From Marinobacter maroccanus (lineage in GTDB: Bacteria; Pseudomonadota; Gammaproteobacteria; Pseudomonadales; Oleiphilaceae), in NCBI RefSeq assembly GCF_002933275.1, contig NZ_PSSX01000018.1, positions 1 to 64,000 of the forward strand: a stretch of DNA of 64,000 bases, written 5' to 3'. Positions 31,911 through 55,028 of the stretch are shown one piece after another (position 1 is the stretch's first letter; every line of letters starts with the position of its first letter). The translations under genes were made by a program, and so were the position numbers. The notes beneath the pieces are model-generated. The model was not told the origin of the DNA, did not search any database, and was given only the letters and a program-made list of their open reading frames with translations.

Positions 31911-31928
31911 CATAGAGGAGAAACGATT

Positions 31929-33769: not shown

Positions 33770-33798
33770 GCATGCGACATTTTTATTTAAATACAGAC

Positions 33799-33810: not shown

Positions 33811-33833
33811 CTGAACAATAAGGAGCACTGCTC

Positions 33834-36035: not shown

Positions 36036-36924
36036 TTACCAACTGACCGACAGCCAGGACAGTTACGGCTTTGGTTTTCTGGACGAATTCGCCAAGCGGG
36101 AAATTCGCCGGGTCATTCTCAAGGCCATCAGCATTCCAGGATATCAGACGCCCTATGCCTCGCGGGAAATGCCCATGGGCCGGGGCTTTGGTACCGGCGG
36201 CCTGCAGTTGACCCTGTCCATGATCGGCCCTGAGGACACGCTGAAGGTGATCGACCAGGGCTCGGATGACTCCGTCAACGCCGTGAATCTGCGCAAATTT
36301 GCGGAGCTGACCTGCCCGGATGTGTCCACCACCGAGAGCACCACCGAAGCGACTCTGATCCAGACTCGCCATCGGGTACCGGAGATTGCCTTGCGGGAAG
36401 ATCAGGTTCTGAACCTCCAGGTGCCTTATCCCGACCCCCTTGTAATAGTGGAACCGTCCGAGGCCAAGCGGAAGATCATGCACGGCGAGGGGGATTATGC
36501 CCGTCTGCTGACCAAACTGTACGAGGACCTGGTGAAGTTCGATGAGATCACCATTTCCCACCGCTATCCCACGCGGATCAATGGTCATTACGTCATCGAT
36601 CCGAGCCCGATCCCGCGTTATGACGTACCCAAGCTCCATCAGTCCCAAGCACTGCTGCTGTTTGGCGCCGGTCGTGAGAAAAAAATCTATGCGGTACCGC
36701 CTTACACCAACGCCGAACCGCTGGTGTTTGACGACGTGCCCTTCCGTACCGAGAACTTCTATAACGCCGACGGTAAGCGCAGGGCCTGCAACCGCTGCGG
36801 CAGCACTAACAGTTTCCTGGACGAGCTGAACCTGGAAGACGGCAGCAAGGCCTGGCAGTGCTCAGACACCGACTTCTGCAACCGCCAGTTAGCCAGAACA
36901 GACGCCGGGGAGGTTACCCAATGA
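36025..36924 (+). CDS. phnJ: Carbon-phosphorus lyase PhnJ (radical SAM)
   Basis: 299 aa from ATG at 36025 (CAGGAGGAA upstream). It cleaves the C-P bond of 5-phosphoribosyl phosphonate. The [4Fe-4S] cysteines are at the C-terminus with spacing C-x2-C-x20-C-x5-C (RACNRCGS ... WQCSDTDFC). The DSYGFGFLDEFAKREIRR start and the MGRGFGTGGLQLT glycine-rich segment are family typical. ATGA overlap with phnK. Confidence 0.96.
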   Translation: MNPNYQLTDSQDSYGFGFLDEFAKREIRRVILKAISIPGYQTPYASREMPMGRGFGTGGLQLTLSMIGPEDTLKVIDQGSDDSVNAVNLRKFAELTCPDVSTTESTTEATLIQTRHRVPEIALREDQVLNLQVPYPDPLVIVEPSEAKRKIMHGEGDYARLLTKLYEDLVKFDEITISHRYPTRINGHYVIDPSPIPRYDVPKLHQSQALLLFGAGREKKIYAVPPYTNAEPLVFDDVPFRTENFYNADGKRRACNRCGSTNSFLDELNLEDGSKAWQCSDTDFCNRQLARTDAGEVTQ

Positions 36925-37751
36925 AACCGATTCTTGAAGTAAAGGGCCTGACCCGCATCCACGGCACCGAGTGTCCATCCTGCCTGGATATGACCGGCCC
37001 GGAGCACGACACCAACGTGTGCCCCGCCTGCGGCTCTGTGGTTGCAGCGGCCAATGTCAGCTTCAGCCTCCAGCCGGGGGAGATTCTCGGTATCATGGGA
37101 GAATCCGGGAGCGGCAAGTCCACGGTGGTGAAAACCCTGTATTTCGATCAGGCGCCCAGCCGGGGCAGCGCCATCTTCCGGGACGGCGACCAGAACCACG
37201 AGCTGTTCAACCTTAACGGCGCGGAACAGCGCTGGTTGCGCAATCACCGCTTCGGCATGGTGTACCAGAATCCCAATCTTGGCCTGAATTTCGGCATCTC
37301 CGCAGGTGGCAACATTGCCGAGCGGTTGCTGATGAACGACCTCAACCACTACGGCGACATCCGCCGCCGGGCCGGCGAACTGCTTACCCGCACTGATGTG
37401 ATGGTCAGCCGTATGGACGAGTCGCCCAAGCAGTTCTCCGGTGGCATGCAACAGCGCGTTCAGATCGCCAAGGCCCTGGCAACACGACCACCTCTGCTAT
37501 ACCTCGATGAAGTGACCACCGGGCTGGACCTGTCGGTACAGGCGCGCATTCTCGACCTGATTCTGGAAATCCAGCACGAGCTGGGCACCGCCATGATTGT
37601 GGTCACCCACGACCTGGGCGTTATCCGCCTGCTGGCCAGTCGCACCCTGGTGATGAAATACGGTCGGGTGATCGAATCCGGGCTGACCGATCAGATTCTG
37701 GAAGATCCGCAGCAGGCCTACACCCAGCAACTGGTGGCATCCACCCTGTGA
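36921..37751 (+). CDS. phnK: C-P lyase ABC-type ATPase PhnK with a four-cysteine insertion
   Basis: 276 aa from ATG at 36921. Walker A GESGSGKST (60-68), signature FSGGMQQRVQIAKAL and Walker B LLYLDEVTTGLD are intact. Between the first strand and Walker A there is an insertion carrying C18-P-S-C21 and C34-P-A-C37, a likely zinc ribbon that the E. coli protein, as I recall it, lacks. PhnK docks on PhnJ in the lyase complex, so the insertion may contact the iron-sulfur region. Confidence 0.94.
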   Translation: MKPILEVKGLTRIHGTECPSCLDMTGPEHDTNVCPACGSVVAAANVSFSLQPGEILGIMGESGSGKSTVVKTLYFDQAPSRGSAIFRDGDQNHELFNLNGAEQRWLRNHRFGMVYQNPNLGLNFGISAGGNIAERLLMNDLNHYGDIRRRAGELLTRTDVMVSRMDESPKQFSGGMQQRVQIAKALATRPPLLYLDEVTTGLDLSVQARILDLILEIQHELGTAMIVVTHDLGVIRLLASRTLVMKYGRVIESGLTDQILEDPQQAYTQQLVASTL

Positions 37752-37762
37752 GGCAAAAACCC

Positions 37763-38509
37763 ATGACAAACATCTCTGAAACACCCATTCTCGACGTTCA
37801 GGGCCTGGCCAAACAGTTTCGCCTGCACGCACAGGACGAACTCGTTCCGTCTTGTTCGGACGTCAACATGCGTGCGTTTCCCGGCCAGCTGGCCGCCCTG
37901 ACCGGGCCCACCGGTGCGGGTAAATCGTCGGTACTGAAGTGCATCTACCGCACCTATCTGCCCAGCGAGGGCAGCATCCATTTTCGTCGGGCCGATGGCG
38001 AGGTCGTCGACCTGGCGCGGATCAGCGAACAGGACATGTTGCATTTGCGCCTGAGCGAACTGGGCTTTGTGACCCAGTTTCTGCACTGCGTACCGCGACG
38101 CCCGGCGGACGAAGTCGTGGCAGAACCACTGATCCTGCGGGGTATGGCCCTTGCAGATGCCCTGGCACAGGCCCGTGAGCTACTCAGGCGCCTGAACGTG
38201 CCGGAGCGCCTGTGGCGTTTGCCACCGGCTACCTTCTCCGGCGGCGAGAAGCAACGGGTCAACCTGGCACGGGGCCTCATTGCCAAACCCCGCCTACTCC
38301 TGCTGGATGAGCCGACTGCCAGCCTGGACAAAAACACTACGGGGCAAGTCATCGAACTGCTGCGGGAATTCAAGCAGGCCGGAGTGGCCATGGTCGCCAT
38401 TTTCCACGACCCGGAACTGGTTACCGCCCTGGCCGATGCCGAATACCGGCTGGCACCGCCCCAAAGCCTGAGCCATTCAACCCCTGCCCCGGAGGCCTTA
38501 CAGTCATGA
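37763..38509 (+). CDS. phnL: C-P lyase ABC-type ATPase PhnL
   Basis: 248 aa from ATG at 37763 (GAGG nine bases upstream). Walker A GPTGAGKSS, signature FSGGEKQRVNLARGL and Walker B LLLLDEPTASLD. Binds the PhnK-lyase complex and is required for ribose-1-phosphonate formation. Overlaps phnM by four bases. Confidence 0.95.
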   Translation: MTNISETPILDVQGLAKQFRLHAQDELVPSCSDVNMRAFPGQLAALTGPTGAGKSSVLKCIYRTYLPSEGSIHFRRADGEVVDLARISEQDMLHLRLSELGFVTQFLHCVPRRPADEVVAEPLILRGMALADALAQARELLRRLNVPERLWRLPPATFSGGEKQRVNLARGLIAKPRLLLLDEPTASLDKNTTGQVIELLREFKQAGVAMVAIFHDPELVTALADAEYRLAPPQSLSHSTPAPEALQS

Positions 38510-39654
38510 GACGCCAATTACTGACCAACGCCCGACTTGTTCTGGAAGACACCGTTGAAGAGCGGGCCGACCTGTTGATCGAAAACGGCACCATTGCCGC
38601 CATCGGACCGACGGACACGCATGGAGCAGAACACATTGACCTAGAGGGCTGCCTGTTGGCACCGGGCCTGATCGACCTGCACTGCGATGCGCTGGAAAAA
38701 GAAGCCGAGCCCCGGCCCAACGTGCATTTTCCATTCGAGCTGGCCGCAGCCCTGGCGGACAAACGAAACGCCGTGGCAGGCATCACCACCGTTTACCACG
38801 CGCTGTCTTTTGCCAACCACGAACTTGGCGTTCGGAACAACGCGGTGGCCGCCGACCTGGCCCGGGCCATGGCCCGACACCGGCCCAACGGCATGGTGGA
38901 TAACCGGGTGCATGCCCGTTACGAAGTGACCGATGAAAGCGCCCCGGATATCCTGAATGCCCTGTTGGCAGAGGGTTCCCTGCAGATGCTGTCCTTTATG
39001 GACCACAGCCCTGGCCAGGGCCAGTTCCGCGATGTGGAAGCCTATCGGGCTTATCTGGCCAAAACCTACAAGACATCCGCCGATGACGTGGATGCCATTC
39101 TGGACCAGAAACGCGCCGCCGCTCGGGGTGCCATGGCCCGCATGGAAAAGCTTGCCGGCGAGGCCCGGCATCACCAGGTCCCGTTAGCCAGCCACGATGA
39201 CGACAGCGCTGAAAAAGTCGCTGTGCTGAAAGGCCTAGGCGCCCGCATATCGGAATTCCCGGTTAACCTTGAAACAGCAGTCGCGGCCCGGGATAACGGC
39301 CTTTCCACCCTGTTTGGTGCGCCCAACATCCTGCGCAACGCGTCCCAGTCCGGCAATATGAAGGCGCTGGACGCGGTTAAAGAAGGAGTGGCCGACTGTC
39401 TGTGCAGCGATTATTCACCGGCGGCGCTGTTACCGTCCGTCCTGCGGCTTGTAGAGAACGGCCACCTCTCGCTGCCGCAAGCTTTTGCTCTGGTTACTCG
39501 CAACCCGGCCAGAGCCACAGGTCTTGAAGATCGGGGCACCATTGCTCAAGGCAAGCGGGCGGACCTGATTGCCATCACAGGCAGCGGATTGCTCGCGCAG
39601 GCACGCCAGGTCTGGTCCGGTGGCCGGGAGGTGCTCAGATGGCAGGCACACTGA
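38506..39654 (+). CDS. phnM: RPnTP diphosphohydrolase PhnM
   Basis: 382 aa amidohydrolase that removes pyrophosphate from ribose-1-phosphonate triphosphate. Metal motif LIDLHCDALEKE near residue 55, ASHDDDS near 230, and a C-terminal DYSPAALLP box. Overlaps phnN by 16 bases. Confidence 0.95.
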   Translation: MRRQLLTNARLVLEDTVEERADLLIENGTIAAIGPTDTHGAEHIDLEGCLLAPGLIDLHCDALEKEAEPRPNVHFPFELAAALADKRNAVAGITTVYHALSFANHELGVRNNAVAADLARAMARHRPNGMVDNRVHARYEVTDESAPDILNALLAEGSLQMLSFMDHSPGQGQFRDVEAYRAYLAKTYKTSADDVDAILDQKRAAARGAMARMEKLAGEARHHQVPLASHDDDSAEKVAVLKGLGARISEFPVNLETAVAARDNGLSTLFGAPNILRNASQSGNMKALDAVKEGVADCLCSDYSPAALLPSVLRLVENGHLSLPQAFALVTRNPARATGLEDRGTIAQGKRADLIAITGSGLLAQARQVWSGGREVLRWQAH

Positions 39655-40208
39655 TCTACCTCGTGGGCCCCTCGGGCAGTGGCAAGGACACCTTGATCAG
39701 CCTGGCCCGGCAACAGCTGGGTCAGGAGCCCGATGTCTGTTTTGCCCACCGCTACATTACCCGGCCGGCTTCAGCCGGTGGTGAAAATCATGTTGCCCTG
39801 ACGGAAGAGGAATTCCTGGCGCGCCAGCGTGCCGGACTCTTCGCCATGAGCTGGGCAAGCCACGGTTGTCATTACGGTATTGGTATCGAGATCAATCAAT
39901 GGCTGGCCAAGGGCCTGACCGTTGTGATGAACGGCTCAAGGGGGTATCTGAAGACCGCGTTACAGAATTACCCCGAACTGTGTCCGGTACTGATTGAGGT
40001 GGCCCCGGAGGTGCTCAAGGAACGGCTGGCCCGACGCGGCCGGGAAACACTGCAAGACATTGAACTGCGGCTGAACCGCAACAGCCAGTTCGACCTGGAT
40101 GCAGAGACAGGCTACCTGCGGGTGGACAACACCCACTCGCCAGACGCCGCTAGCCAACGATTACTGACCATCATCAACCAGCACAGGAGACAGGGCGCGT
40201 GCGCGTAA
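39639..40208 (+). CDS. phnN: Ribose 1,5-bisphosphate phosphokinase PhnN
   Basis: 189 aa P-loop kinase (GPSGSGKDT at about 10-18) of the guanylate-kinase-like PhnN family, with FAHRYITRPAS and RLARRGRETLQDIELRL. Converts ribose 1,5-bisphosphate to PRPP, the last step from phosphonate to central metabolism. Confidence 0.95.
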   Translation: MAGTLIYLVGPSGSGKDTLISLARQQLGQEPDVCFAHRYITRPASAGGENHVALTEEEFLARQRAGLFAMSWASHGCHYGIGIEINQWLAKGLTVVMNGSRGYLKTALQNYPELCPVLIEVAPEVLKERLARRGRETLQDIELRLNRNSQFDLDAETGYLRVDNTHSPDAASQRLLTIINQHRRQGACA

Positions 40209-40984
40209 CCTTTCTTGGCACCGGGGGCGCCGGCGGTGTTCCCCGGTTTGGCTGCACTTGCCTCGCCTGCCAGCGGGCAAAAGGTAACCATAGGCATGTC
40301 CGGAGGCCCTGCTCGGCACTGATTGAAGACGGCAACCACAAGATACTGCTGGATGCCGGGCTGATGGACCTGCACGATCGCTTCGAACCGGGTGAGCTGA
40401 GCGCCATTGTGCTCACCCACTACCATCCCGATCACGTTCAGGGGTTGCTGCACCTGCGCTGGGGTAAAGGCGAGTCGATACCGGTTTACGGGCCACCCGA
40501 TCCAGGTGGCTTCACCGATCTGTTCAAGCACCCCGGCATTCTGGACATCTTCGATCTGAGTGCGTTCGGGGCGTTAGAACTGGGAGATTTCATTCTAACG
40601 CCGCTGCCGTTGAATCATTCGAAACTCACCTTCGGTTACGCCATCGCCCATCGCAACGGCGCTCGGTTTGCGTACCTGACCGACACGCTTGGACTACCAC
40701 AGGTAACGGACGATTTTCTCAGCCGCTGGCGTCCCAGCCACATAGCCGTGGATTGCAGTCATCCACCGGCTGATGTCTCGGGCAAAACACCGCAGAACCA
40801 CAACGATGTCACCGCAGCCCTGGCAATGATTGAACGCAGTGGCGCGGAACAGGGCTGGCTGACCCATCTGGGCCACGAAACTGACTGCTGGCTGATGGCA
40901 AATGCCAGCGCTCTGCCGAAAAATGTGACGCCGGCAGCGGACGGGCTGAGCTTCGACATCACAACCAGCCATTCCCCGACATGA
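40199..40984 (+). CDS. phnP: Phosphoribosyl cyclic phosphodiesterase PhnP
   Basis: 261 aa starting with GTG. Metallo-beta-lactamase fold with H74-Y-H76-P-D78-H79 and a later CSHPP/NHNDV region; FLGTGGAGGVPRFGCTC at the N-terminus is PhnP-like. Opens the cyclic phosphate left by C-P bond cleavage. Overlaps phnN and the permease gene. Confidence 0.94.
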   Translation: MRVTFLGTGGAGGVPRFGCTCLACQRAKGNHRHVRRPCSALIEDGNHKILLDAGLMDLHDRFEPGELSAIVLTHYHPDHVQGLLHLRWGKGESIPVYGPPDPGGFTDLFKHPGILDIFDLSAFGALELGDFILTPLPLNHSKLTFGYAIAHRNGARFAYLTDTLGLPQVTDDFLSRWRPSHIAVDCSHPPADVSGKTPQNHNDVTAALAMIERSGAEQGWLTHLGHETDCWLMANASALPKNVTPAADGLSFDITTSHSPT

Positions 40985-41829
40985 TCAGCGCCACGGCCGC
41001 CCTGGCTGCATCGGTATTGATGCACGTGCTCTGGAACCTGATCGCCCGGCACCAGCCCGGCGCGGCCTGGCCGCTGTGGTGGGCTTTATTGGCGCATCTT
41101 GTACTACTGGCTCCCTGGGGGGCTTACGCACTTTGGCAAGCCGATGCTTGGTCATCCTCATTTCTGGGTTTAATGGCTGTTTCTGCCACCGCGAATGCTC
41201 TGTATTTTTTCAGTTTATGGAAATCCTACAAACACGCTCCCGTGGCCATGGTGTACCCGCTGGTGCGCAGCTCACCGGTTCTGATTGCGTTGTGGTGGTT
41301 GATGCTGACCGGCGAGTCGCCCAGCCCAGTGGGCTTGCTGGGCATTATGATCAGTGTTGCCGGGCTTATGATCCTGGCAGGCAGTCAATCGGAGGTCGGA
41401 GAGAGCGCCGCTATTCCCTGGGCGCTCCTGGCGATGGCATGCACCAGCGTGTATTCCATTTCCGACAAACTGGCGACCGGCCAATTGCCCGGGTTCGCTG
41501 CGATCATCGGGTTTGTATCGGTGGGATACAGTGCTGCCTTCCTGGTGCTGACTCTGGCATTGCGACGGCAGACGGGTCGTTGGACGCCGCCACAAAGACT
41601 GCCGGTTCCGATCATCGTGATTGGTGGGCTGTGCATCGGACTGGCCTATGCATTGGTTATCCATGCTATGCGGTTCTTACCTTCCGCGGAAGTCGTTGCC
41701 TATTCGAATACGGGAATTGTGCTCGCAACGCTCGCTTCCATTTACTGGTTTGGTGAAAAATCGAACACGGGCAGGCGCCTTATAGGCTCTGCAGTTATTT
41801 GCACCGGCCTTCTATTACTAGCGCTCTAA
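40981..41829 (+). CDS. EamA/DMT family membrane protein linked to phosphonate use
   Basis: 282 aa with ten predicted hydrophobic helices in two EamA halves. A family of such proteins is regularly encoded at the end of phn operons and called phosphonate-utilisation-associated membrane protein; its substrate is not known. Four-base overlap with phnP shows it is part of the operon. No terminator is visible behind it. Confidence 0.85.
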   Translation: MISATAALAASVLMHVLWNLIARHQPGAAWPLWWALLAHLVLLAPWGAYALWQADAWSSSFLGLMAVSATANALYFFSLWKSYKHAPVAMVYPLVRSSPVLIALWWLMLTGESPSPVGLLGIMISVAGLMILAGSQSEVGESAAIPWALLAMACTSVYSISDKLATGQLPGFAAIIGFVSVGYSAAFLVLTLALRRQTGRWTPPQRLPVPIIVIGGLCIGLAYALVIHAMRFLPSAEVVAYSNTGIVLATLASIYWFGEKSNTGRRLIGSAVICTGLLLLAL

Positions 41830-42590: not shown

Positions 42591-45500
42591 CTATTTCAGT
42601 GAACCTCGGTCTCTGTTACCGCGGGGGGAGGAAGGGAGCACCTGTTGCGCTAATGGCAAAGTGAGTTTGAAAGTAGCGCCGAGCTGGCTTGGTTCTAGAA
42701 CAATCAAGCCACCCATTTTCTCAACAAGCGTTTTACAGATGGAAAGGCCTAGCCCGAGACCACTGGATTTATTGGAGTGGATAAAGGGTTCGAAAACCTG
42801 GGAGCCAAGATGGGATGGAACGCCAGGCCCATTGTCCGAAATGGATAAGATCAGGTGCTGATCCTTCTCACGAAGTTTGCCAACAATCTCAATGCGCGGA
42901 TTCTCCGCCGAGGACTCAAGAAGAGCTTCAAGAGCATTATCAATCAAATTTCCAAGAACGTGCATGAGAGCCGACTCGGAAACAAGGACATTCACCTCAA
43001 CTCCCTGAGTCGAGAAAGCAACACCGGACAAGCGATCGGCGTTGAGCTTGGCGGCACGTTGAATCACTTTGGACAAGGGTGTGGGCTTCAATTCCAGTTC
43101 ATGAGCAGATGTGGGCGCTAGAAAATCTCTCAGCTCACTTATCATGAGCTGGATTCTTTGAAGGCCCTCTGTGGCATCGGCTAGCGCCTCGCTACGTACT
43201 GTGTCACTGCTGTGACTCGCAGCGACGCGGGCAGCCGATAGCGCGTAGTTGAGAGGATTACCAATTTCGTGGATTAGGCCCCCCGCAAAATGGTTGAGGG
43301 TCCTCCACCGTTCCGAATGGATAAGCTGGGCTTCGCTGGCTTTCAGATCGCTGACGGCCCTTTCCAAATCGTTGTTCTTCGCTTCCAGCATCCTTTCTAG
43401 GCGGGTTCGCTGAATCAGATTGAACAGGCGAGTGGTAAGCTCTGGGCCAGAGAATGGCTTTGACAGAAAATCGTCTACGCCCAGTTTTAATGCCTGTTCT
43501 CGGACATTGCCTTTGGTATTGGCAGTTAGAAGGATGACCGGAATAGATCTGAGATCCTTGCTTGCCTTCAGCTCTTTCAGAATGTCGATACCATCCTTAT
43601 CAGGCAGCATATGGTCGAGAAGTATCGCCGTCGGTTGAAGCTTTCGGATAACGTCGACCGCAGAGCCGCCTTCTGATACCCACTCAATGTCGTAACTGCT
43701 CTGCAGAAGATCCATGAGAACGGCGGCGATGTCTCTTTCATCCTCAACAATGACCAGCGTCGGACGATCGCTCAGAGCCCTCGTGGTTGATCGCACCAGA
43801 TAGTGGAGTGATTGTCGCAGTTCAACCGCATCGAAAGGCTTTATTAAGAACGCATCCGCCCCGGCATCAGCGGCCGCTTGCTTTGTTGATGGACCGTTTT
43901 TGGCTGTGAGCATCACGATGGGCACGGTTTGACCGTGGGGATGCCGTCTGCACCAAGTCACAAATTCTGTTCCGCTCATGCCAGGAAGCATTTGGTCACT
44001 GATAACGCAGCTTGGCTTCAGTTGATCAAATAACTTTTGCCCCTCAAAAGCGTCGCATGCGATTTGAACCTGGAAGTCAGAGGACAACACCGTTCTTATG
44101 TAAGCCGCCATATCCGGTTCGTCATCAACCACCAGGCACAGAGGTTTATTGTTTTGGCTCCCTTGAACCTCTTTCTTGAAGCAGTTGAGATAATCAACTT
44201 CTGCGCTTCGTAAAAGATCCGAGCGATCATCCTCAATTACTGAGGGAGCTGGGATGTCTTGGTGGCACAGTGGAAGCGAGACAGTGAACGTTGCACCTGC
44301 TTCAAGTTTACTCTGGACGAAGATATTGCCGCCGTGGGATGAAACAATCTCTTTGACAAGTGCCAGGCCAATGCCCGTTCCGTGGTAGCGCCTGGTTTGT
44401 GAACCGTCGGCTTGGCGGTACCGCTCAAAAATCACGTCATGATCTTTTGGGTCAATGCCTATGCCATTGTCCGCGACGGTCAAAACCGCATGATCGTCGT
44501 CCTTCATGAGCGAGACAGACACTTCGCCTTCCTTGGCCGGTGAAAATTTAAAGGCGTTCTGAATAAGGTTGAAGCAAACGCGCTCTAGCTGCATCTCGCT
44601 TCCCAGGACGGGAACAACGTCATTGCTCACCGTGACCTTTAAACTCTTACCGTTTGCATCGCTGAATAACGCCGAAAGCTGTGATGCCGTGGATCTAACA
44701 ATCTGATCAAAGGCTAACGGGGAAAACTTTGGTTGTTTTCTCCCAGATTCGAAAGACATGACCTCCAAAACATCGTTGACGAGTTTTATTAACCGAGCGC
44801 CGTTTCTTACGATCCGCTCAATAACAACTCGGGCCTGTTCAGAAAGGCGTTCACTTTCAGTGTCTAGAAGGTGCTTTGCAGGTCCGACAATAACGGTTAG
44901 AGGGGTGCGAAGCTCATGAGATACATTGGCTAGGAACTCTGACTTGAGGCGATCCATTTCCTCAAGTTCTTGGTTCTTTCTCTGAATTTCCTGTTCCTGG
45001 CAGAACGTGTAGAACCGCTCCCTCTCTGAAAAATAGGCAGCAATATTTGCCACGACGCCTGTCAGGAAGATGAAGTAGGAATTGTTGATGACGATGCGCC
45101 AGGCACCTTCTGGTATACCGGACGCAGCGCTTACGGCCCAGTAGCTTGCCAAGGTGAGAAAGGTATAAAAAAGCGCTTCTTTGAAGGTGAGACCCAGCAT
45201 GAATCCGATGCCGAGCAGAACGAGGTTGATGCCAGCGTAGTAGGTCGATGTGGCTCCATCCGTTTGGTAGATGATGATTACGACTGTGAGAATGACCGAC
45301 GACGTAAAAGCCGCGGTGACCAAAAATAGGTATGGCCGGACGCGAGGTAAGGTCGTTATGGCGTACATCGCCATAAGAAACGCAACTTCAGCGATTCTCA
45401 GGAAGGCAAAATGAACAAATTTCTCGGGGTAGACCACGTAATCAAGCGGAATGCCAAGCGTAACAATGATGATGGAAATCAGGCAGCCGATCCGGTTCAG

Positions 45501-45617
45501 GTACGCACGATCCGCCAAATTCTTGTGTTTGTAGGCCTGGCGATAATGCTTCAGATGCGAGACATCGCCAAAAGCTGGGCTGAATTGAGCGAGGCTACGC
45601 GTAAGCGACTTGATCAT
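42591..45617 (-). CDS. Membrane hybrid sensor kinase with two kinase modules (6TM-HK-REC-REC-HK)
   Basis: 1008 aa from ATG at 45617. Six hydrophobic segments (about 44-62, 66-90, 95-117, 127-146, 148-168 and 178-196) with tiny loops, so the ligand is probably sensed in the membrane. Kinase 1: phospho-acceptor H234 (NVSHELRTPL), N-box NAFKF, G-boxes DNGIGID and GTGIGLAL. Receiver 1 with D541, receiver 2 with D668. Kinase 2: H783 (IHEIGNPLNY), N-box DNALEALL, G-boxes DNGPGV and GLGLGLSI. The gene overlaps the hydrolase gene by 23 bases. Resembles CqsS/LqsS-type quorum sensors in topology, but the double kinase is different. Confidence 0.9.
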   Translation of the reverse strand: MIKSLTRSLAQFSPAFGDVSHLKHYRQAYKHKNLADRAYLNRIGCLISIIIVTLGIPLDYVVYPEKFVHFAFLRIAEVAFLMAMYAITTLPRVRPYLFLVTAAFTSSVILTVVIIIYQTDGATSTYYAGINLVLLGIGFMLGLTFKEALFYTFLTLASYWAVSAASGIPEGAWRIVINNSYFIFLTGVVANIAAYFSERERFYTFCQEQEIQRKNQELEEMDRLKSEFLANVSHELRTPLTVIVGPAKHLLDTESERLSEQARVVIERIVRNGARLIKLVNDVLEVMSFESGRKQPKFSPLAFDQIVRSTASQLSALFSDANGKSLKVTVSNDVVPVLGSEMQLERVCFNLIQNAFKFSPAKEGEVSVSLMKDDDHAVLTVADNGIGIDPKDHDVIFERYRQADGSQTRRYHGTGIGLALVKEIVSSHGGNIFVQSKLEAGATFTVSLPLCHQDIPAPSVIEDDRSDLLRSAEVDYLNCFKKEVQGSQNNKPLCLVVDDEPDMAAYIRTVLSSDFQVQIACDAFEGQKLFDQLKPSCVISDQMLPGMSGTEFVTWCRRHPHGQTVPIVMLTAKNGPSTKQAAADAGADAFLIKPFDAVELRQSLHYLVRSTTRALSDRPTLVIVEDERDIAAVLMDLLQSSYDIEWVSEGGSAVDVIRKLQPTAILLDHMLPDKDGIDILKELKASKDLRSIPVILLTANTKGNVREQALKLGVDDFLSKPFSGPELTTRLFNLIQRTRLERMLEAKNNDLERAVSDLKASEAQLIHSERWRTLNHFAGGLIHEIGNPLNYALSAARVAASHSSDTVRSEALADATEGLQRIQLMISELRDFLAPTSAHELELKPTPLSKVIQRAAKLNADRLSGVAFSTQGVEVNVLVSESALMHVLGNLIDNALEALLESSAENPRIEIVGKLREKDQHLILSISDNGPGVPSHLGSQVFEPFIHSNKSSGLGLGLSICKTLVEKMGGLIVLEPSQLGATFKLTLPLAQQVLPSSPRGNRDRGSLK

Positions 45618-46497
45618 TTTTCTGGCCCACCCTGGCCATGAAGGTTTTGATGGCCGCCTCGTATTGAGGCCAGTTTTCAAACATTGGCATGTGGCCGCTC
45701 CCGTCTATAAGCGCGACATTGCTGTTCGGAAACATTGATGCCAGCTCATCGGTGCGCTCAATGGACACATAGGGGTCGCGGTTTCCACACATTACCAATA
45801 CCGGACATTGAATGCTCGGGATTATGTCGCTCAGGTCCATGTTTGCCAGATCCCTGAAGTACACTCCCATCGATGCGCCGCTGATTTTTTGAAGAGCCGG
45901 AAAGTAGTAGGGCAGGTAGGCTTGAAACGCGGTTGTATTGACGGTCTTCTTGGGTTCGGCGAGCACATCACCGATAAACAACCTGTGAATGCCCAATGAG
46001 AGAGAACTGGCTCGTAATGCCGGCGAAATTAACGCGCGTCCGAAGGCGCCGAGTTTATTGGCCATCCACTGGAAAGCAGCGTATATGCCACCTTCCTCTT
46101 CTCCCGTCACTGCACCGCCGATGGAAATGAGGCCTTGAACACGATCGGGCGCCACTGCCGCTGCGGCGATGGCCGCGTGTGCTCCCGTAGAATGCCCAAT
46201 GAGGATAAATGGTGCGGTCGGGCCCAGAAGATAATTGACCTGGTCGAGAACGGCGGTGGCAAGGCTGTCTGCGTCGAGTGTCGCAGAAGATTGAATCGAG
46301 GCCGACGGGTAGTGCCCAGGCAAGCCTATGATGAAGATCGGGCGATTACCAAACACAGATAGATGATCGGGCCACCAAAAATAGATAGAGCAAAGAAGGC
46401 CGTGGATCAGAACAACGGGTGTGCCTGGAGCATTTTCGTTAAATGCCAGGCATTTGAAGCCGTTGATGCCCGTTTCCTTGGGAGGCTGCGCTATCAT
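45595..46497 (-). CDS. Alpha/beta hydrolase, operon partner of the sensor kinase
   Basis: 300 aa from ATG at 46497 (GAAGG upstream; a GTG 25 codons earlier is possible). Oxyanion IHGLL, nucleophile elbow G-H-S103-T-G, acid D241 (CGNRDPYV) and H269 (GSGHMPMFE) form a full catalytic triad, with a helical cap between about 130 and 220. Soluble, no signal peptide. Translational overlap with the kinase gene implies a common process: making, releasing or degrading the ligand sensed by the kinase is the obvious idea, but the substrate is unknown. Confidence 0.85.
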   Translation of the reverse strand: MIAQPPKETGINGFKCLAFNENAPGTPVVLIHGLLCSIYFWWPDHLSVFGNRPIFIIGLPGHYPSASIQSSATLDADSLATAVLDQVNYLLGPTAPFILIGHSTGAHAAIAAAAVAPDRVQGLISIGGAVTGEEEGGIYAAFQWMANKLGAFGRALISPALRASSLSLGIHRLFIGDVLAEPKKTVNTTAFQAYLPYYFPALQKISGASMGVYFRDLANMDLSDIIPSIQCPVLVMCGNRDPYVSIERTDELASMFPNSNVALIDGSGHMPMFENWPQYEAAIKTFMARVGQKNDQVAYA

Positions 46498-46638
46498 CTT
46501 AAAACCTTCTATTACATTCCTTTGCGTGCAAAGATACGGTAGTTTGGCGGGAGTTTCCGGGGACGGAGCCACAAAACCGGATAACCTACCGCTAAAATGG
46601 GCACTGGTCAGCAGATTTAGCTTCGCTGATCCGGAAGA

Positions 46639-47028
46639 ATGGGTCTTTATCTAAAGACAACACCACAAGGACTGTGTGTGATTCACTGCATTTCAGGGCA
46701 ACCTGATGTGATTCGTTGTCAGCTTCCTTGCGACAACATCATATTTCACAACTACGAAAGCCCGCTTCCAACGCTATCAGTTGGAGGCATTCTCATATTT
46801 CACGAACCTTCTAGGCCATGGCTGACGAATCCTCCACGTTTGCCAACTTCGACGCATCGGATCCTGCTTGCGGAAAATCCCAGTGCCGGAGATATTAAGG
46901 CTGCAGTCAATCGCCTCGGAATTGCCCGAGTAACTGACCTGGCCGGGCTCTCCGCTTCAATAAAGAGCGTATTGCAGCTTTCGGCGCTTTCAGTTGCTCA
47001 AAGCCGCATCGAGGATTCGGCCTTATGA
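46639..47028 (+). CDS. Protein of unknown function, signalling module
   Basis: 129 aa, divergent from the hydrolase gene across a 141-base gap that should hold promoters for both. No recognisable family. Beta-rich first half (VIHCISGQPDVIRCQLPCDNIIFH) and helical end (IKAAVNRLGI...SASIKSVLQLSAL). It overlaps the receiver gene by four bases (ATGA), so it is a genuine part of that operon. Confidence 0.6.
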   Translation: MGLYLKTTPQGLCVIHCISGQPDVIRCQLPCDNIIFHNYESPLPTLSVGGILIFHEPSRPWLTNPPRLPTSTHRILLAENPSAGDIKAAVNRLGIARVTDLAGLSASIKSVLQLSALSVAQSRIEDSAL

Positions 47029-47996
47029 CTGACTTGCCGATTTCCGTTGCTTTTGTTGATGACGAACCTCGCGCACTGAGAGCCTTCACTTGGGAGTTTG
47101 GCGAGGATTTTCAGGTTAAAACCTTTCCTGGTGGTGCAGAGCTATTGAGCGCGTTGGACGCTGGGGAGCATTTCGACGTGCTGATTAGTGATCAGCGAAT
47201 GCCGGGGATGACGGGCGATCAAGTTCTTAGGCAGGTAAGCGAGAAATATCCGCAGATGCGGCGATTGGTAATGACAGCCTATGCTGATGTCGCGCCGCTT
47301 CAGAATTGTATTAATGACGCCGGCATTGACGGCTACCTTGAAAAACCGTGGGATCCGGCTGAGGTTCGTGAATTTGTCCAGCGCTCGCATGAGCGCCGTT
47401 CGCAAGAGATAGAAAGAGAAAAACGCCGCATATTTGCAGCGGGTGAGCGATGGACGATTATCCGGAAAGATAGAGAACGGGACCTTGCTCAGATCTGTGC
47501 GGCCTTGGGTTTCGACCACAATGTGTGCTCCACTTTTTTTCACGTTTTAGAACTTGCGTCGACGCCGCGGGCTTATGATTGGTCCGATTTGTTGCTTGTT
47601 GATAAAAATCTAGAACAAGAGCTTGCGCTAGATTTTCTGTCGATGATCGAGTCGCTAATGCTGACAGGGTCAGAACTGCCAGACCCTGCACGGCGAGCTC
47701 TTTTTTATTGGTGGATGCTGCTACGAGGGTGTCCAGAAGGGCAGGGTAGCCGCTTTTTCCAGCATGAAAATCAAGAAAAAAACATCTCCCTTTCCTTCGA
47801 TGCCGGTGCCCCGTTTGGAGACAGCATCCTGGATCCCTGTGGTGATCGGGACTCCAATACCTTGCGGCAAAATGCTCTGCTCTTGCTAATTATTCGGGAG
47901 CTTGAAAATCTGGGTGGCCGTTTGGATCTGGAGGCAGATAAGACTCGGTTTCGTGGGGATTTGCTCATTCAAGCCTATTCGGGGGTTACAGGATGA
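47025..47996 (+). CDS. Response regulator with an unrecognised C-terminal output domain
   Basis: 323 aa. The receiver domain (about 5-125) has the acidic pair V-D-D-E, phospho-acceptor D56 (ISDQRMPGM), T84-like TAYAD and K in YLEKPWDP. A short coiled linker (HERRSQEIEREKRRIF) leads into about 185 residues without any known DNA-binding or enzymatic motif. The ISDQRMPGM...EKPWDP style is that of receivers working with hybrid kinases and HD-GYP/PAS outputs, but neither is present here. Overlaps the LuxR-type gene by four bases. Confidence 0.8.
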   Translation: MTDLPISVAFVDDEPRALRAFTWEFGEDFQVKTFPGGAELLSALDAGEHFDVLISDQRMPGMTGDQVLRQVSEKYPQMRRLVMTAYADVAPLQNCINDAGIDGYLEKPWDPAEVREFVQRSHERRSQEIEREKRRIFAAGERWTIIRKDRERDLAQICAALGFDHNVCSTFFHVLELASTPRAYDWSDLLLVDKNLEQELALDFLSMIESLMLTGSELPDPARRALFYWWMLLRGCPEGQGSRFFQHENQEKNISLSFDAGAPFGDSILDPCGDRDSNTLRQNALLLLIIRELENLGGRLDLEADKTRFRGDLLIQAYSGVTG

Positions 47997-48595
47997 GTTA
48001 CGTGAATATAACCATCATTTACCCCTACCGACTTCTTGCCGATGCATTTGCAATCAGCATTAACAAGCTGCCGGATTTTTACGTTGCTCATCAAATCGAA
48101 GCTTTGAGCGAGTTGTGGGAAAGCGTAGAAGACACCGATCTGATCCTAGTGGATTCGGACCTTTTGAAACAGTCTTCGTTCAGAGACATCGTAAAAATTA
48201 AAAAGCGGTTTCCACAGGCAGAATTAGTCGTCCTGGGTATCGTTTCTGCACCAGAGGTTTTGATTGCCAGAGGTTGTGCTGGCTATATCGACCTTCACAG
48301 AGGTTTCGATGAAGCCATTCATCTGATCACCAGAGTAGGTCGCGGTGCTGCGGGTGGCATTTTGTCGAGCTCTAAGTCGGCGTCGGTGAGCGCTATGGAC
48401 ACACTTTCCTTGCGAGAAAGCCAAACCCTGAATCTCATATGGGACGGCATGACGAATAAAGAGATCTGCGATTTCCTTGGGGTAAAGCAACAAACGGTTA
48501 GCTCTTACGTGAACCGCTTGTGTGAAAAGCTCGGTGTGGAAACACGCAACGGCATCTTTCTTCTCAGTAGCCGGCTGCGGGATAAAACCTTGTAG
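47993..48595 (+). CDS. LuxR-type regulator with a degenerate receiver-like N-terminus
   Basis: 200 aa. The C-terminal LuxR/FixJ helix-turn-helix (LSLRESQTLNLIWDGMTNKEICDFLGVKQQTVSSYVNRLCEKLGV, about 138-185) is clear. The N-terminal 120 residues have the length and strand pattern of a receiver (LILVDSDLL) but lack the usual acidic pair, so phosphorylation is uncertain. Probably the transcriptional output of the module; the gene that follows is a possible target. Confidence 0.85.
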   Translation: MSYVNITIIYPYRLLADAFAISINKLPDFYVAHQIEALSELWESVEDTDLILVDSDLLKQSSFRDIVKIKKRFPQAELVVLGIVSAPEVLIARGCAGYIDLHRGFDEAIHLITRVGRGAAGGILSSSKSASVSAMDTLSLRESQTLNLIWDGMTNKEICDFLGVKQQTVSSYVNRLCEKLGVETRNGIFLLSSRLRDKTL

Positions 48596-48603
48596 GTTTT
48601 TTA

Positions 48604-48635
48604 AGACATTTTTTGTCTGTTTTTTACTACAGACA
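48604..48635 (+). promoter_or_regulatory. Mutually exclusive hairpins downstream of the LuxR-type gene
   Basis: AGACA (48604-48608), TGTCTG (48614-48619) and CAGACA (48630-48635) allow two alternative stems; both are followed by or enclose T tracts. It could terminate the regulator operon, act as an attenuator, or be a dyad operator (AGACA/TGTCT half-sites) for the next gene. Confidence 0.4.
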
Positions 48636-48697
48636 CTTTACAATCCGTAACATAAACTCTCCTCCTATATAAGGACATATATTGAGGAAACGGACTA

Positions 48698-49081
48698 ATG
48701 ATTGCTCTAACGAAAGGAAGCTCCATCTCAACCTCATTGTTTGTGTGTATTCGGGATGGAAGAACGGGCGGCTTCACAACAAATTTTCATCAAATCGTGT
48801 CGACGGATCCTTCTGTATCTTTTCATTCCCCGAACCCCTCAAAAGGCGCACTTGAGGCCATTGCGCTAAACATCTTGACGCTTGTATTTCCAGGCGAGGA
48901 AATCGAACTACCTATTGGCCGCTGCTCTACCCTAGCCATGAGTTTGCACAGGATGTTTGTGGAAGACGTGCTTTCGACGATGCCTGAGGAAGGCGGCAAT
49001 CTTCCGTTTGCAGTCGTTAGGGACTGGGCACTGGAAATCAGTGCAAACAGCGCGCAGCACTTTGCGAAGATCCCCGCTTGA
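48698..49081 (+). CDS. Protein of unknown function downstream of the LuxR-type regulator
   Basis: 127 aa, start ATG at 48698 with TTGAGGAAAC upstream. No recognised family; a mixed alpha/beta protein with no signal peptide or membrane segment. Its own promoter region carries the AGACA/TGTCT dyads, so it may be the target of the LuxR-type regulator. Confidence 0.6.
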   Translation: MIALTKGSSISTSLFVCIRDGRTGGFTTNFHQIVSTDPSVSFHSPNPSKGALEAIALNILTLVFPGEEIELPIGRCSTLAMSLHRMFVEDVLSTMPEEGGNLPFAVVRDWALEISANSAQHFAKIPA

Positions 49082-50532: not shown

Positions 50533-51783
50533 GTGGCAACATCACCTGACGTAAGGCCGGATAACGAGGCCTTCTCCATGCCTGGGTCGTCTTTGCTTCG
50601 TGTTTTTGACGAAGCGCCCTATCTGTGTCGCTGTTCCGACAATAAGACCGCGGCTTACGTTAAACCCAGGGCAAATGCGGTGAATTGGCCTTACATGCAG
50701 GTCAATCGCAAGAACGTGGTCTCTTGGCTGGTTTTCGATTTAGACCATAACAATCCGATGATTTGGGAAGACGCAGCGTTACCGCCTCCTAACCTCATCG
50801 TTCGTAACCCGGAAACCAGCAGTGCTCACCTTTTTTATGCAATCACACCGGTTCTTACGGGCCCTGAAGCCCGACAGCAACCGATTGATTTCCTGAAAGC
50901 TGTTTATCGCTCAATGGCGCTGAAATTAAAGGCGGATCTTGCTTACAGCGGACCTGTGGCAAAGACACCGGGCCATCCCTGGTGGCAGACCACGGAGCTT
51001 CATAATTCTGAATACTCTCTTGGTGAATTGCAGCCGGCGAGCGACCTTGAGTACATACCTCCATGGCGAGGCGTTCCAGATCTGGAGACCGTCAGCCACT
51101 CCAGACACTGTACGTTGTTCGAGCAGGTTCGATTCTTTGCCTATGCGATCGTGCGGCAGGAACGTGAACAGGGCTCTGAAAGCTCCTTTATAAAGAGGGT
51201 GGAGCAGTACGCACGGAGTAAGAACCGATTTTCCGGACGTCACTACAAATCCGGCAAGCTTCGCCAGAGCCAGGTTCGTGCGACGGTAAAATCGATTACT
51301 CGCTGGACCTGGTCAAAGTATTACGGCGCCGCCGATTGTGCTCGTGGCACCATGCTGTTAGATCGCTCAATACCGCTGCCTGAGAAGCAGCGTTTGGCAG
51401 CCAGGTACACGCACAAGGAGCGCGTTAAGAAGACCGAAGAGAGGATTCGGACAGCCGTTACCAATCTTGAAGCTGAGGGGATTGCACTGACACAGAAGGC
51501 AGTTGCTGAAGCTTCAGGACTTTCCCGCCAAACCGTTGCAAAACACAAACATTTACTCGCGCCGGCCGGCCGCAATGTTGTCGATTTTCTTGTCGAAAAG
51601 CGGCGTCTAAACGCTGGCAAATCCCATGTTAAAAATGCTGTCTATCAGATAACTGCTTCGCTTTTGGTTCCTTTGTTGTTTGATCGTGGTCGCTCTCTAG
51701 TGCCGGCGCGGACGATTAGAATGTTGTCCGATTCAGGCAGTGTGTCTGAGAATTGTGAGAGTGTGAGGCTGGATACCAGCTAA
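50533..51783 (+). CDS. repA: Plasmid replication initiation protein (RepA, Replicase/primase C-terminal type)
   Basis: 416 aa, starting at GTG behind AAAGGGGAA; ATG at 50578 is the alternative. Replicase-family signs: WLVFDLDHNNPMIWEDAALPPPNLIVRNPETSSAHLFYAI, then PWWQTTELH and a PriCT-like helical segment around residue 200-270. A C-terminal helix-turn-helix (LTQKAVAEASGLSRQTVAKHKHLL, about 315-340) may bind the origin. It defines the window as part of a plasmid replicon. Confidence 0.88.
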   Translation: MATSPDVRPDNEAFSMPGSSLLRVFDEAPYLCRCSDNKTAAYVKPRANAVNWPYMQVNRKNVVSWLVFDLDHNNPMIWEDAALPPPNLIVRNPETSSAHLFYAITPVLTGPEARQQPIDFLKAVYRSMALKLKADLAYSGPVAKTPGHPWWQTTELHNSEYSLGELQPASDLEYIPPWRGVPDLETVSHSRHCTLFEQVRFFAYAIVRQEREQGSESSFIKRVEQYARSKNRFSGRHYKSGKLRQSQVRATVKSITRWTWSKYYGAADCARGTMLLDRSIPLPEKQRLAARYTHKERVKKTEERIRTAVTNLEAEGIALTQKAVAEASGLSRQTVAKHKHLLAPAGRNVVDFLVEKRRLNAGKSHVKNAVYQITASLLVPLLFDRGRSLVPARTIRMLSDSGSVSENCESVRLDTS

Positions 51784-51857
51784 GTCGTGTCTTCGTATTT
51801 TCTTGGTTCTTTGCTGTTGGCTTTTAAAGGGTAGAGTGGATTTTAAAGAAATGACGG

Positions 51858-51891
51858 CGCCATTGTGGTATTCTATTTTTGCCAAATGGCG
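51858..51891. promoter_or_regulatory. Operator/promoter of the Xre-RES module
   Basis: Inverted repeat CGCCATT (51858-51864) and AATGGCG (51885-51891) brackets a TATTCT hexamer (51869-51874) that could be the -10. The GGGAGG ribosome site of the antitoxin follows directly. Confidence 0.5.
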
Positions 51892-51901
51892 GGAGGTTCA
51901 T

Positions 51902-52408
51902 ATGTCAGCGATTACTGAGAAAAAACAGAGCCCTAAAGGGCATTTTGGGCCTGGGAAGGCGAATGTTAGCGGTGTTTATGGGGGGCGTGGTGCTGTGAAA
52001 GCCCATCGCTCAACTATCACCGGAAAGTACGTATTTTCGGGCGTTCAGGGCGTAAAAAAAATCCGACGCGGGGGCAAGGCTAAGGAACTGGATGCCCTGA
52101 AGGCCCTTTACGACATCGACGACACTGTTTTGTGCACATTGTTGGATATTTCCCCGCGCACCTTGGTGCGCAGACGTGAAGATGGAACCGTGAACAAAGC
52201 AGAACTGGATCGAGTAGCGACTTTGCACCTGGTGATGCGTGACGCCGTGGAACTGTTCGAAGGTGATAGGGATAAGGCACGACGTTGGCTGAAGCGTCCG
52301 GTGCGAGCCCTTGAGCACCAGTGCCCAATAGATCTTCTGGATACCGAGGCTGGTATTCGTATGGTACGGGATCTGATTGGTCAGCTTGAGCACGGCGTGT
52401 ACGCATGA
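51902..52408 (+). CDS. Xre/MbcA/ParS-type antitoxin
   Basis: 168 aa from ATG at 51902 (GGGAGG upstream). A glycine-rich basic N-terminus, an Xre-like helix-turn-helix (LKALYDIDDTVLCTLLDISPRTLVRRREDG) and the MbcA/ParS toxin-binding C-terminal domain (ELFEGDRDKARRWLKRPVRAL, then PIDLLDTEAGIRMVRDLIGQLEHGVYA). It ends four bases inside the RES toxin gene. Confidence 0.92.
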   Translation: MSAITEKKQSPKGHFGPGKANVSGVYGGRGAVKAHRSTITGKYVFSGVQGVKKIRRGGKAKELDALKALYDIDDTVLCTLLDISPRTLVRRREDGTVNKAELDRVATLHLVMRDAVELFEGDRDKARRWLKRPVRALEHQCPIDLLDTEAGIRMVRDLIGQLEHGVYA

Positions 52409-52872
52409 AGGCGTACCGTATTACAAAACGAAAACACAAGGATACCGCGTTTTCCGGGTTTGGTGCGCGCCAATATGGGGGGCGTTGGAATCTGCCCAAT
52501 CACTCTGCGGTATATCTGTCGGAGAGCATTGCCCTTGCTCAACTAGAAGTCCTGGTTAACCTGGGTGAAGAGGATAGTCTTCAGAATTATCTATTGTTTC
52601 AAATTGAAGTCCCAGACAGCCAACTTATGGTCCTGGCCGATGACGCTTACCCAAAAGATTGGAACGCGACAAGAGTCTCAGCAGATACTCAAGAGATCGG
52701 AACTGATTTTCTTATCAGCGGTGAAGCGCTTGCATTGGCGGTTCGTTCGTGTGTTGTGCCACAAGAATATAATCTCGTTCTTAATCCAGAACACCCTGGC
52801 GCCGAAGCGGTTATCGAAGAGGCAGTTGAGGTAACATTCCAATTTGATGATCGACTGCGCTCTGATTCCTGA
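52405..52872 (+). CDS. RES-domain toxin
   Basis: 155 aa RES family protein. The conserved R27 (YGGRWN), Y37 (VYLSES), E48 (LAQLEVL) and S115 (AVRSCVVPQEYNLVLNP) match the residues known to be needed in RES toxins, which degrade NAD+ or ADP-ribosylate a target. Forms an addiction module with the Xre antitoxin and would stabilise the plasmid. Confidence 0.92.
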   Translation: MKAYRITKRKHKDTAFSGFGARQYGGRWNLPNHSAVYLSESIALAQLEVLVNLGEEDSLQNYLLFQIEVPDSQLMVLADDAYPKDWNATRVSADTQEIGTDFLISGEALALAVRSCVVPQEYNLVLNPEHPGAEAVIEEAVEVTFQFDDRLRSDS

Positions 52873-53123: not shown

Positions 53124-54014
53124 TTATGCCCTAAGGTGCTATGAGTAACTATTACGTCTACGTGTACATTGATCCCAGGAATTTCGAGGAGTTTTACTAT
53201 GGGAAAGGTAAAGGCTCCCGGAAACATGCTCACCTCAATGACGACTCAGATAGCGAAAAATCCCGGCGGATAAAGGCCATCAAGAAAGAAGGATTGGAGC
53301 CAATCATAAGGGTTATTGCTCGCAATCTATCTGAACACGATGCGCTGCTTGTTGAGAAGACCTTACTCTGGAAGTTGGGTAAGCAGCTTACGAATATTTC
53401 CTCTGGCCATTATGCAGACAATTTTCGTCCCCACGACTCTCTGCACAAATATCTTTCGGGGTTCGATTTTCAAAATGGGCTGTATTACTACAACGTAGGG
53501 GAAGGCGTGCATCGCAACTGGGATGACTACGTAACCCATGGGTTTATCTCCGCAGGCCAGGCACCAAGATTCCGGGATGCAATGCTAGGCTTGCAGACAG
53601 GGGATTTTGTCGCAGCATACCTTAAGCGTCACGGTTTTGTAGGGGTTGGCCAGATTACTCAAAGCGCTCGGCCGGCGCGTGACGTTCTGGTAGGTGGTGT
53701 CCCACTTTTGCAGAAAGATCTGGTATGCCCGAATATTGCAGAAAACTCGAACGATCTCGAGAAGTCGGAGTATGTCGCACTCGTAGACTGGATCCGGACT
53801 GTTCCGCGAAACGAGGCAAAATGGAAATCAAAGAGTGGGTTGTTTACCTCGCAGCTCATTCGAGCTTCGTTAGATGGCCAGCCAGAAACTGTAAAGTTTT
53901 TGGAACAGGAGTTTGCCGTTGATTTCACGGAACTTTTGTCATGACAATCGATTGCGCAATGCTAACTAACTTTCCGCCGCCTCGCGGCTTCAAACACAGC
54001 CCGTGTGCCGGGCG
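53124..54014 (+). mobile_element. Integron gene cassette 1 (GIY-YIG/EVE-like protein plus attC)
   Basis: Starts after the G of a GTTATGC core (53123-53129) and ends at the G of the next GTTATGC (54014-54020). It holds a single gene starting 17 bases in, and an attC-like element behind it, the standard build of an integron cassette. The 250 bases upstream (52873-53122) show no gene, no integrase and no clear attI. Confidence 0.65.
53141..53944 (+). CDS. GIY-YIG nuclease-like protein fused to an EVE/PUA-like domain
   Basis: 267 aa. N-terminal GIY-YIG module (YVYVYIDP, YYGKGKGSR at 19-27, and E72 in VEKTLLWKLG). From about residue 118 a second domain (NVGEGVHRNWDDYVTHGFISAG, LQTGDFVAAYLK and GFVGVGQI) has the pattern of EVE/PUA-like modified-base readers. 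The fusion suggests a modification-dependent restriction enzyme; the alternative is DNA repair. It is the only gene of an integron cassette. Confidence 0.7.
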   Translation: MSNYYVYVYIDPRNFEEFYYGKGKGSRKHAHLNDDSDSEKSRRIKAIKKEGLEPIIRVIARNLSEHDALLVEKTLLWKLGKQLTNISSGHYADNFRPHDSLHKYLSGFDFQNGLYYYNVGEGVHRNWDDYVTHGFISAGQAPRFRDAMLGLQTGDFVAAYLKRHGFVGVGQITQSARPARDVLVGGVPLLQKDLVCPNIAENSNDLEKSEYVALVDWIRTVPRNEAKWKSKSGLFTSQLIRASLDGQPETVKFLEQEFAVDFTELLS

Positions 54015-54649: not shown

Positions 54650-55028
54650 CCAAATCTGAATGTTCGCTCTCGGCCGGACTGCACTCTAAAGATCAAATTT
54701 GCGCGTTGTTCCAAGTGCCCTGAATTAATTTATGGACTGCGCGTAAGACCAGTAGACGTGTCTCGGTGGTATCTACAGGAAACCTCACAGCCACTGGGCT
54801 ACAGGCCGACCCAAAACCTCCTGAACCTTTCGGTACACTGCATGTGCTTTAACATAATGTTTATTATGCGTAGTAACCTAATATATAGGAAGCTATGCAT
54901 AATCCGCCAATAGACTTCTTAACACTGTATAAAAAAACACATATGAGACGTTTCGTCACATGTATATAGTGAGGTGGAGTTTGTGATCAGAGCTCTTTAA
55001 CTTTAAACGAAAACATTGGGGCAGCGTG
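54650..55028 (+). promoter_or_regulatory. Upstream region of the Wadjet-like operon
   Basis: About 380 bases without a convincing gene. It starts with a copy of the dispersed repeat (CTGAATGTTCGCT at 54657). A perfect 16-base palindrome CATAAT-GTTT-ATTATG lies at 54853-54868 and a smaller GACG-TTT-CGTC at 54947-54957. TATAGT (54965-54970) could be a -10. The palindromes are operator candidates for the WYL regulator encoded at the end of the operon. Confidence 0.5.

Follow-up and report, generated by a model that had tools for sequence, protein, structure and literature searches.

Six open reading frames (ORFs) located between positions 42591 and 49081 raise the question of whether they form a signalling system of a new kind or a relative of a known one. 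They lie in the window analyzed here, a stretch of 64,000 nucleotides corresponding to bases 1-64000 of contig C10 of the 4.34-Mb genome G000 of Marinobacter maroccanus. A preliminary description of this DNA had proposed an undescribed signalling system. Our analysis leaves only part of this proposal standing: since the membrane sensor and the second kinase core encoded by the set belong to the PhcS class, the set is akin to, though diverged from, a named quorum system, which it matches as a whole only by half. This homology, taken alone, is highly probable on sequence grounds. As for function, we give about an even chance to the set being a module of the Phc class that senses a lipid signal and in which a hydrolase has taken the place of the synthase; it would be a backbone feature of a family of Marinobacter conjugative plasmids (a sense-and-erase module).

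All six ORFs were recovered where they had been described. Two are read leftwards, an alpha/beta-hydrolase (45595-46497, minus strand; 300 amino acids from ATG 46497, with an alternative GTG start at 46572) and a hybrid sensor kinase of 1008 amino acids (42591-45617, minus strand). The coupling announced for this pair is real, as the kinase ATG (45617) precedes the hydrolase stop codon (45595-45597), giving a 23-bp overlap that is also found in loci L033 and L060. Four genes are read rightwards on the plus strand: P129 (46639-47028, 129 amino acids), the receiver protein RECQ (47025-47996), a LuxR/NarL-type regulator (47993-48595) and P127 (48698-49081, 127 amino acids). The first three are the ATGA-linked trio already noticed, both the P129/receiver and the receiver/LuxR overlaps being 4 bp long. 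HisKA, HATPase, REC, Abhydrolase and GerE domains were recognised in the set by Pfam, which found no domain in P129 or P127. The two arms are separated by an intergenic region (46498-46638) that is conserved in a seven-row alignment (A11) and presumed to hold the promoters of both; no consensus sigma-70 pair was found in it.

The kinase begins with a membrane sensor (residues 1-205), followed by a first kinase module (H234), two receivers (REC1 and REC2) and a second kinase core (H783). The double-kinase architecture proposed initially is borne out, since each of the two modules has its histidine motif and its N and G boxes. Of the six transmembrane segments claimed, a hydropathy scan delineates five clear hydrophobic stretches and a likely sixth that stays below threshold, so that a six-segment topology is plausible. 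Kinase 2 matches PhcS of locus L104 (34% identity over 249 amino acids, E 4e-37) and of locus L074 (E 4e-33), whereas kinase 1 is far poorer against the same two cores (about E 1e-13). Moreover, H783 (HEIGNP) aligns with H230 (HELNNP) of the L104 protein, and H230 of Ralstonia PhcS is reported as the autophosphorylation site in the accessible part of PMC11960443. Because the second core matches PhcS far better than the first and carries the equivalent phospho-accepting histidine, the window kinase is, as judged from these alignments, a PhcS into which another kinase and two receivers have been inserted, after the sensor and ahead of the kinase core. The best NCBIfam profile for the kinase is LvrA, at 363 bits, far under the curated cutoff of 1200 bits; an NCBIfam scan of the sensor alone retrieved no quorum-sensor family.

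In the comparison with PhcS-class sensors, identity is only 23-30%. However, a maximum-likelihood tree of 35 sensors (from which L107, L112, L113 and L114 were omitted) contains a 99/99 branch that groups the Marinobacter sensors with all seven PhcB-linked ones, and thereby places the membrane sensor in the PhcS class. Its Marinobacter side includes three Marinobacter sensors, the seven PhcB-linked sensors, eight proteins of unread neighbourhood and L118, which lacks PhcB; none of the 16 sensors on the far side is PhcB-linked. The tree program warns that several long branches meet, and the finer branching order is therefore unsure.

The neighbourhoods of related sensors point in the same direction. 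At E 1e-8, sensor profile A3 retrieved four of the 390 genomes of the order, including two outside Marinobacter (G098 and G065), in which an S-adenosylmethionine (SAM) methyltransferase gene lies immediately upstream of the kinase gene. These kinases (L067 and L068, respectively) have a sensor-kinase-REC-kinase plan with a single receiver. Likewise, the Paraburkholderia graminis plasmid pPHS1_P (L074) encodes consecutively a methyltransferase, a kinase and two receivers. Among the matches listed for this methyltransferase (at least 120), several are annotated as "extracellular factor (EF) 3-hydroxypalmitic acid methyl ester biosynthesis protein", which is the PhcB function, and most of the named ones are called only class I SAM-dependent methyltransferase. 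A wider sensor profile (A8) retrieved 12 of the 369 class genomes and 18 of the 390 order genomes. We read 28 non-Marinobacter loci, namely all 25 further places found with A8 and L067, L068 and L074; in one of them, L104, the layout is phcB, phcS, phcR, phcQ according to gene order, matches and reading. The seven best sensor scores (248, 240, 236, 135, 69, 65 and 64 bits) all come from loci with a PhcB-type methyltransferase directly upstream, three of which (L067, L068 and L074) were rows of the sensor profile. At the other 21 loci (63.0 bits or less, hence a margin below 1 bit), no upstream PhcB-type methyltransferase was detected at E 1e-4. Little upstream sequence is visible in L105. PhcB-type methyltransferase and sensor kinase pairs occur in five genomes of the Marinobacter order (L067, L068, L115, L116 and L117). 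The distribution of the phc cluster is given as restricted, in Betaproteobacteria, in the portion seen of a survey (PMC10653808, section 17). The Phc-like loci of the Marinobacter order (G098, G065 and others) and the plasmid set fall outside this published range.

In the window, the place directly upstream of the kinase, held by a PhcB-type methyltransferase in the best-scoring relatives, is occupied by the alpha/beta-hydrolase. The catalytic triad attributed to this enzyme is indeed complete (Ser103-Asp241-His269 from ATG 46497, or S128/D266/H294 in the longer GTG frame). The GHSTG elbow (G-x-S-x-G), D241, H269 and the start methionine at ATG 46497 are invariant in the six aligned rows. Pfam assigns the protein to Abhydrolase_6 (E 2e-18), a serine hydrolase family, and its closest solved structures are mostly esterases. 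PhcB profile A10 found nothing in the six carrier Marinobacter genomes at E 0.01, one of these genomes being 82% complete, and was positive in both PhcB-bearing controls, whose genes were rows of the profile. In addition, none of the set's genes encodes a known autoinducer synthase, as already noted in the preliminary description. Esterases that cleave 3-hydroxypalmitic acid methyl ester (3-OH PAME) are known from other bacteria according to the section seen of PMC10349395; the part of PMC3355433 available to us holds nothing on such esterases. Generic alpha/beta-hydrolase genes also occur near the PhcB-kinase pairs of L116 (9090-9587) and L117 (4264-4947), at a distance of about 1 kb and in opposite orientation, with 22-24% identity to that of the window.

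The six genes keep the same order in each of the seven distinct genomes found to contain the set: that of the window, G007, G009 (M. flavimaris; contig L036), G354 (M. guineae; contig L033), G817, G834 (Bin_10; contig L035) and the metagenome-assembled genome UBA11143, labelled Gammaproteobacteria only. The adjacency of hydrolase and kinase in other genomes, on which the proposal had been made to depend beforehand, is retained in all seven. Compared with the window, identity across carriers reaches 92-95% for the sensor and 78-85% for the hydrolase, and is 66-82% for P127, 66-75% for RECQ and 59-66% for P129. Since the sensor varies so much less than RECQ and P129, ligand recognition seems to be held constant among carriers. 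The ratios of nonsynonymous to synonymous divergence (dN/dS) against G007 are 0.02 for the sensor, 0.12 for the hydrolase, 0.21 for P129 and 0.12 for P127, as real genes would show. Among 72,556 records of a plasmid database, the sensor matches a single one, from P. graminis, the hydrolase matches 29, all below 60% identity, and the receiver protein matches 183, none spanning 80% of the query. In viral contigs, the sensor has no match and two matches concern the receiver only. A role in anti-phage defence was considered and rejected, as the PADLOC matches are weak and involve only kinase and receiver domains of the sensor kinase, together with the helix-turn-helix of the LuxR protein.

Downstream of the sensor, the putative acceptor of the phosphate is RECQ, whose receiver is intact (acidic pair D12/D13, D56, T84 and K107). 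Its output domain was rightly described as unrecognised: it is family-specific and devoid of any recognised DNA-binding domain. A fold search with full RECQ was filled by receivers, with LvrB chains at ranks 45 and 47 (poor superposition, rmsd, root-mean-square deviation, of 18-20), and the output domain was therefore folded alone; it is perhaps a degenerate histidine-kinase fold. LqsR is not among the fold matches listed for RECQ, which excludes nothing. The output profile matched only its own genome out of 369, gave no profile match to the output of PhcQ, and matched kinase core 2 faintly (E 0.034, probability 1.5%). RECQ is thus like PhcQ in layout and receiver only; the receiver protein downstream of the L067 kinase aligns with it at 25%. 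According to the parts of PMC8578825 and PMC13320629 available to us, PhcQ lacks a DNA-binding site, and its binding partner is PhcA. Alongside RECQ, the LuxR/NarL-type regulator combines a GerE helix-turn-helix with a degenerate N-terminal receiver. As its acidic pair and lysine are replaced, by reading of the sequence, this receiver is probably not phosphorylated. P129 was tried as a pseudo-receiver and rejected, the faint likeness of its C-terminal third to the alpha4-beta5-alpha5 part of a receiver (probability 22%) not being significant.

The "dyad repeats" reported before P127 proved to be of two kinds: terminator-like hairpins closing the operon (48575-48619, plus strand) and one perfect palindrome, TGTCTGT-N8-ACAGACA (48614-48635). 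The hairpins show one compensatory change in five distinct sequences, a weak covariation since 58 of 500 shuffles did as well or better. The palindrome is the sole exact copy in the window, where the two other matches, with three mismatches each, are what chance predicts; it has one mismatch in L033-type loci. It is a candidate regulator site upstream of P127, which may be an output gene and whose upstream region is conserved.

The set is carried by six of 124 Marinobacter genomes. The same six encode a replication initiator (Rep; Pfam Replicase; 50533-51783, plus strand, outside the signalling set) at 83% identity or more, and three others with a Rep at 35-52% lack the set. The distance between Rep and P127 is 0.7-1.5 kb in every carrier. 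TraC, sought in the six carriers only, is 94-100% identical in all of them (99-100% in four other Marinobacter genomes and 94% in G007); it is encoded on the contig of the set except in G009, where it lies on a different contig. All six thus share one tra system. The plasmid link suggested previously therefore holds insofar as the set is found together with rep and tra, a functional link to these being argued from position only. By contrast, the suggested link to phn genes fails: in L033-L035, the same tra genes stand about 1-2 kb from the kinase without phn, and phn was thus rejected as a functional partner; its run looks like inserted cargo. This phn (C-P lyase) run occupies 30138-41829 of the window, between tra and the set, with a guanine-cytosine content of 57-62%, and an F-type conjugation module at 2031-27592 includes a coupling protein, a TraI-like relaxase, TraC and pilus assembly genes (labels of both from ORF reading).

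Synonymous divergence (dS) was computed between window 42594-49078 and L060, L061, L069, L129 and L130. Four plasmids have a TraC dS of 0.05-0.11, whereas all six set genes exceed 1.2 or are not computable, and Rep reaches 0.55-0.71 in three of them and 2.0 in G009. Conversely, for G007, traC is saturated and not computable, whereas Rep is at 0.31 and most set genes are at 0.7-1.1 (LuxR 1.9, RECQ not computable). Since the divergence of set and Rep disagrees with that of traC across plasmids, the tra region and the rep-plus-set block have, by this measure, recombined. The divergence of the set equals or exceeds that of Rep, and the set may exist as allelic types among plasmids.

The logic of a hydrophobic signal put forward in the preliminary description is likely. 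Under the sense-and-erase reading, for which we infer the ligand, the substrate and the regulated genes, the membrane sensor would bind a hydrophobic ester, probably a 3-hydroxy-fatty-acid ester or a close analogue. Phosphate would then be relayed through kinase 1, both receivers and kinase 2 (H783) to D56 of RECQ. The latter may act by contact on the co-transcribed LuxR regulator, as PhcQ does on PhcA, and this regulator would control the divergent promoters and P127. Meanwhile, the hydrolase would cleave the sensed ester inside the cell and so set the threshold and the off-time of the response. The likely purpose would be to tune plasmid replication or transfer to signal-making neighbours.

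The same evidence can be read otherwise. The hydrolase might make the signal, either by freeing a hydroxy acid or by forming an ester through the reverse reaction, and so take over the role of PhcB; the set would then amount to a full quorum system whose synthase is new. Such a role would suit the position of the hydrolase, its gene overlap with the sensor gene in seven of seven distinct genomes, the lack of any PhcB match in carriers and the almost invariant sensor; however, soluble serine hydrolases generally consume esters, the closest solved relatives are mostly esterases and no precursor-making gene lies within the set, and we regard signal synthesis as distinctly unlikely. Marinobacter lives on hydrocarbons and wax esters, and the set could also sense nutrient or lipid state through host or environmental esters, with the hydrolase as a catabolic or detoxifying partner. 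Although a generic alpha/beta family and the failure to find PhcB in six of six carriers agree with such a role, the best-scoring sensor relatives are tied to the signal synthase PhcB in seven of seven cases, the set has no transport or catabolic genes and in all six carriers it adjoins rep rather than catabolic genes, which makes this explanation rather improbable. Finally, the kinase and its regulators could be an ordinary hybrid two-component system, with the hydrolase, P129 and P127 as hitchhikers held by plasmid linkage. All carriers from the genus search share one Rep, so that conserved gene order is weaker evidence than it would be across distant genomes. Nevertheless, order, 23-bp overlap and low dN are kept even though, for four of the five plasmids compared, dS exceeds 1.2 or could not be computed in all six set genes, and linkage by itself would not preserve the P129 and P127 reading frames; mere hitchhiking is thus very improbable.

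The sense-and-erase reading, which we prefer, can be carried one step further, into a proposal that we consider unlikely. The plasmid would eavesdrop, having kept a Phc-type receptor and lost the synthase, with a receptor-coupled esterase erasing the signal inside the cell. As the signal of the own cell would be erased, the module would report only signal from plasmid-free or foreign cells and time replication or transfer by it. A sensor that hardly varies, a hydrolase gene overlapping that of the kinase, the lack of a synthase and the strict association with rep and tra all fit this proposal. If it is true, the strong synonymous divergence of the set beside a near-identical traC would reflect allelic receiver types swapped among plasmids.

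What matters here is that the backbone of a conjugative plasmid from Marinobacter carries a Phc-class receptor, beside which a hydrolase stands where the synthase would be. If this hydrolase acts on the sensed lipid, the set would be a built-in sense-and-erase module. It would make testable whether plasmids listen to the neighbours of their hosts, and it offers a defined sensor-enzyme pair for finding marine lipid ester signals. In the literature, we found no paper pairing Marinobacter with 3-OH PAME, none naming Marinobacter among the matches listed for PhcS and the PhcB methyltransferase and, judging by title and start of abstract among the matches listed, none on such a system for Marinobacter conjugative plasmids, quorum sensing, histidine kinase or hydrolase.

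The window carries other genes beyond Rep. A gene pair at 51803-52872 resembles, by reading, an Xre/RES toxin-antitoxin system, and a 267-amino-acid protein (53141-53944) matches the PADLOC candidate defence families PDC-S11 and PD-T4-3. Further on, a four-gene cluster including a 1230-amino-acid SMC-like protein (55026-61544) is laid out like a Wadjet/Jet plasmid-defence system; PADLOC gave no match at E 1e-5 for its four proteins. A 504-amino-acid frame, open to the window end (62443-63957), matches a type IIG restriction-modification profile, but only in the C-terminal part of that profile (654-1134).

Among named systems, LvrA/LvrB (hybrid kinase and receiver-kinase) resembles the set in that LvrA is the best NCBIfam profile for the kinase and LvrB appears among the fold matches of RECQ, but the score is far below cutoff, the superposition is poor and there is no hydrolase. 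The Cqs alpha-hydroxyketone system (CqsA/CqsS) also combines a membrane sensor kinase with a response regulator. The same holds for Lqs (LqsA/LqsS/LqsR), as outlined in the seen portion of PMC10653808 (section 17), both systems being compared by description only; according to Pfam, none of the six set proteins is a pyridoxal phosphate (PLP)-dependent synthase of the LqsA/CqsA type, the search being confined to the set. The 3-OH PAME esterases of other bacteria can cancel a Phc signal, a functional analogy only, and are reported as quenching enzymes in the part of PMC10349395 available to us. Closer to the set, the Phc-like loci of G098 and G065 share with it the sensor-kinase-REC-kinase plan, a LuxR gene divergent from the operon and receiver proteins, but they keep a PhcB-type methyltransferase upstream of the kinase, have one REC instead of two and lack the hydrolase. 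With PhcBSRQ of Ralstonia and Cupriavidus (here L104 and L074), the set has in common the sensor class, the PhcS-type kinase core with its histidine, a receiver protein in which no DNA-binding domain is recognised and, immediately upstream of the sensor kinase, a gene encoding an enzyme. The set has no ORF for a separate PhcR (receiver and kinase) and no LysR-type PhcA, the latter having been sought in the set only. It differs further from PhcBSRQ by an alpha/beta-hydrolase instead of PhcB, the addition of kinase 1 and two receivers to the sensor kinase, a LuxR regulator, a divergent layout and its location on a Marinobacter conjugative plasmid.

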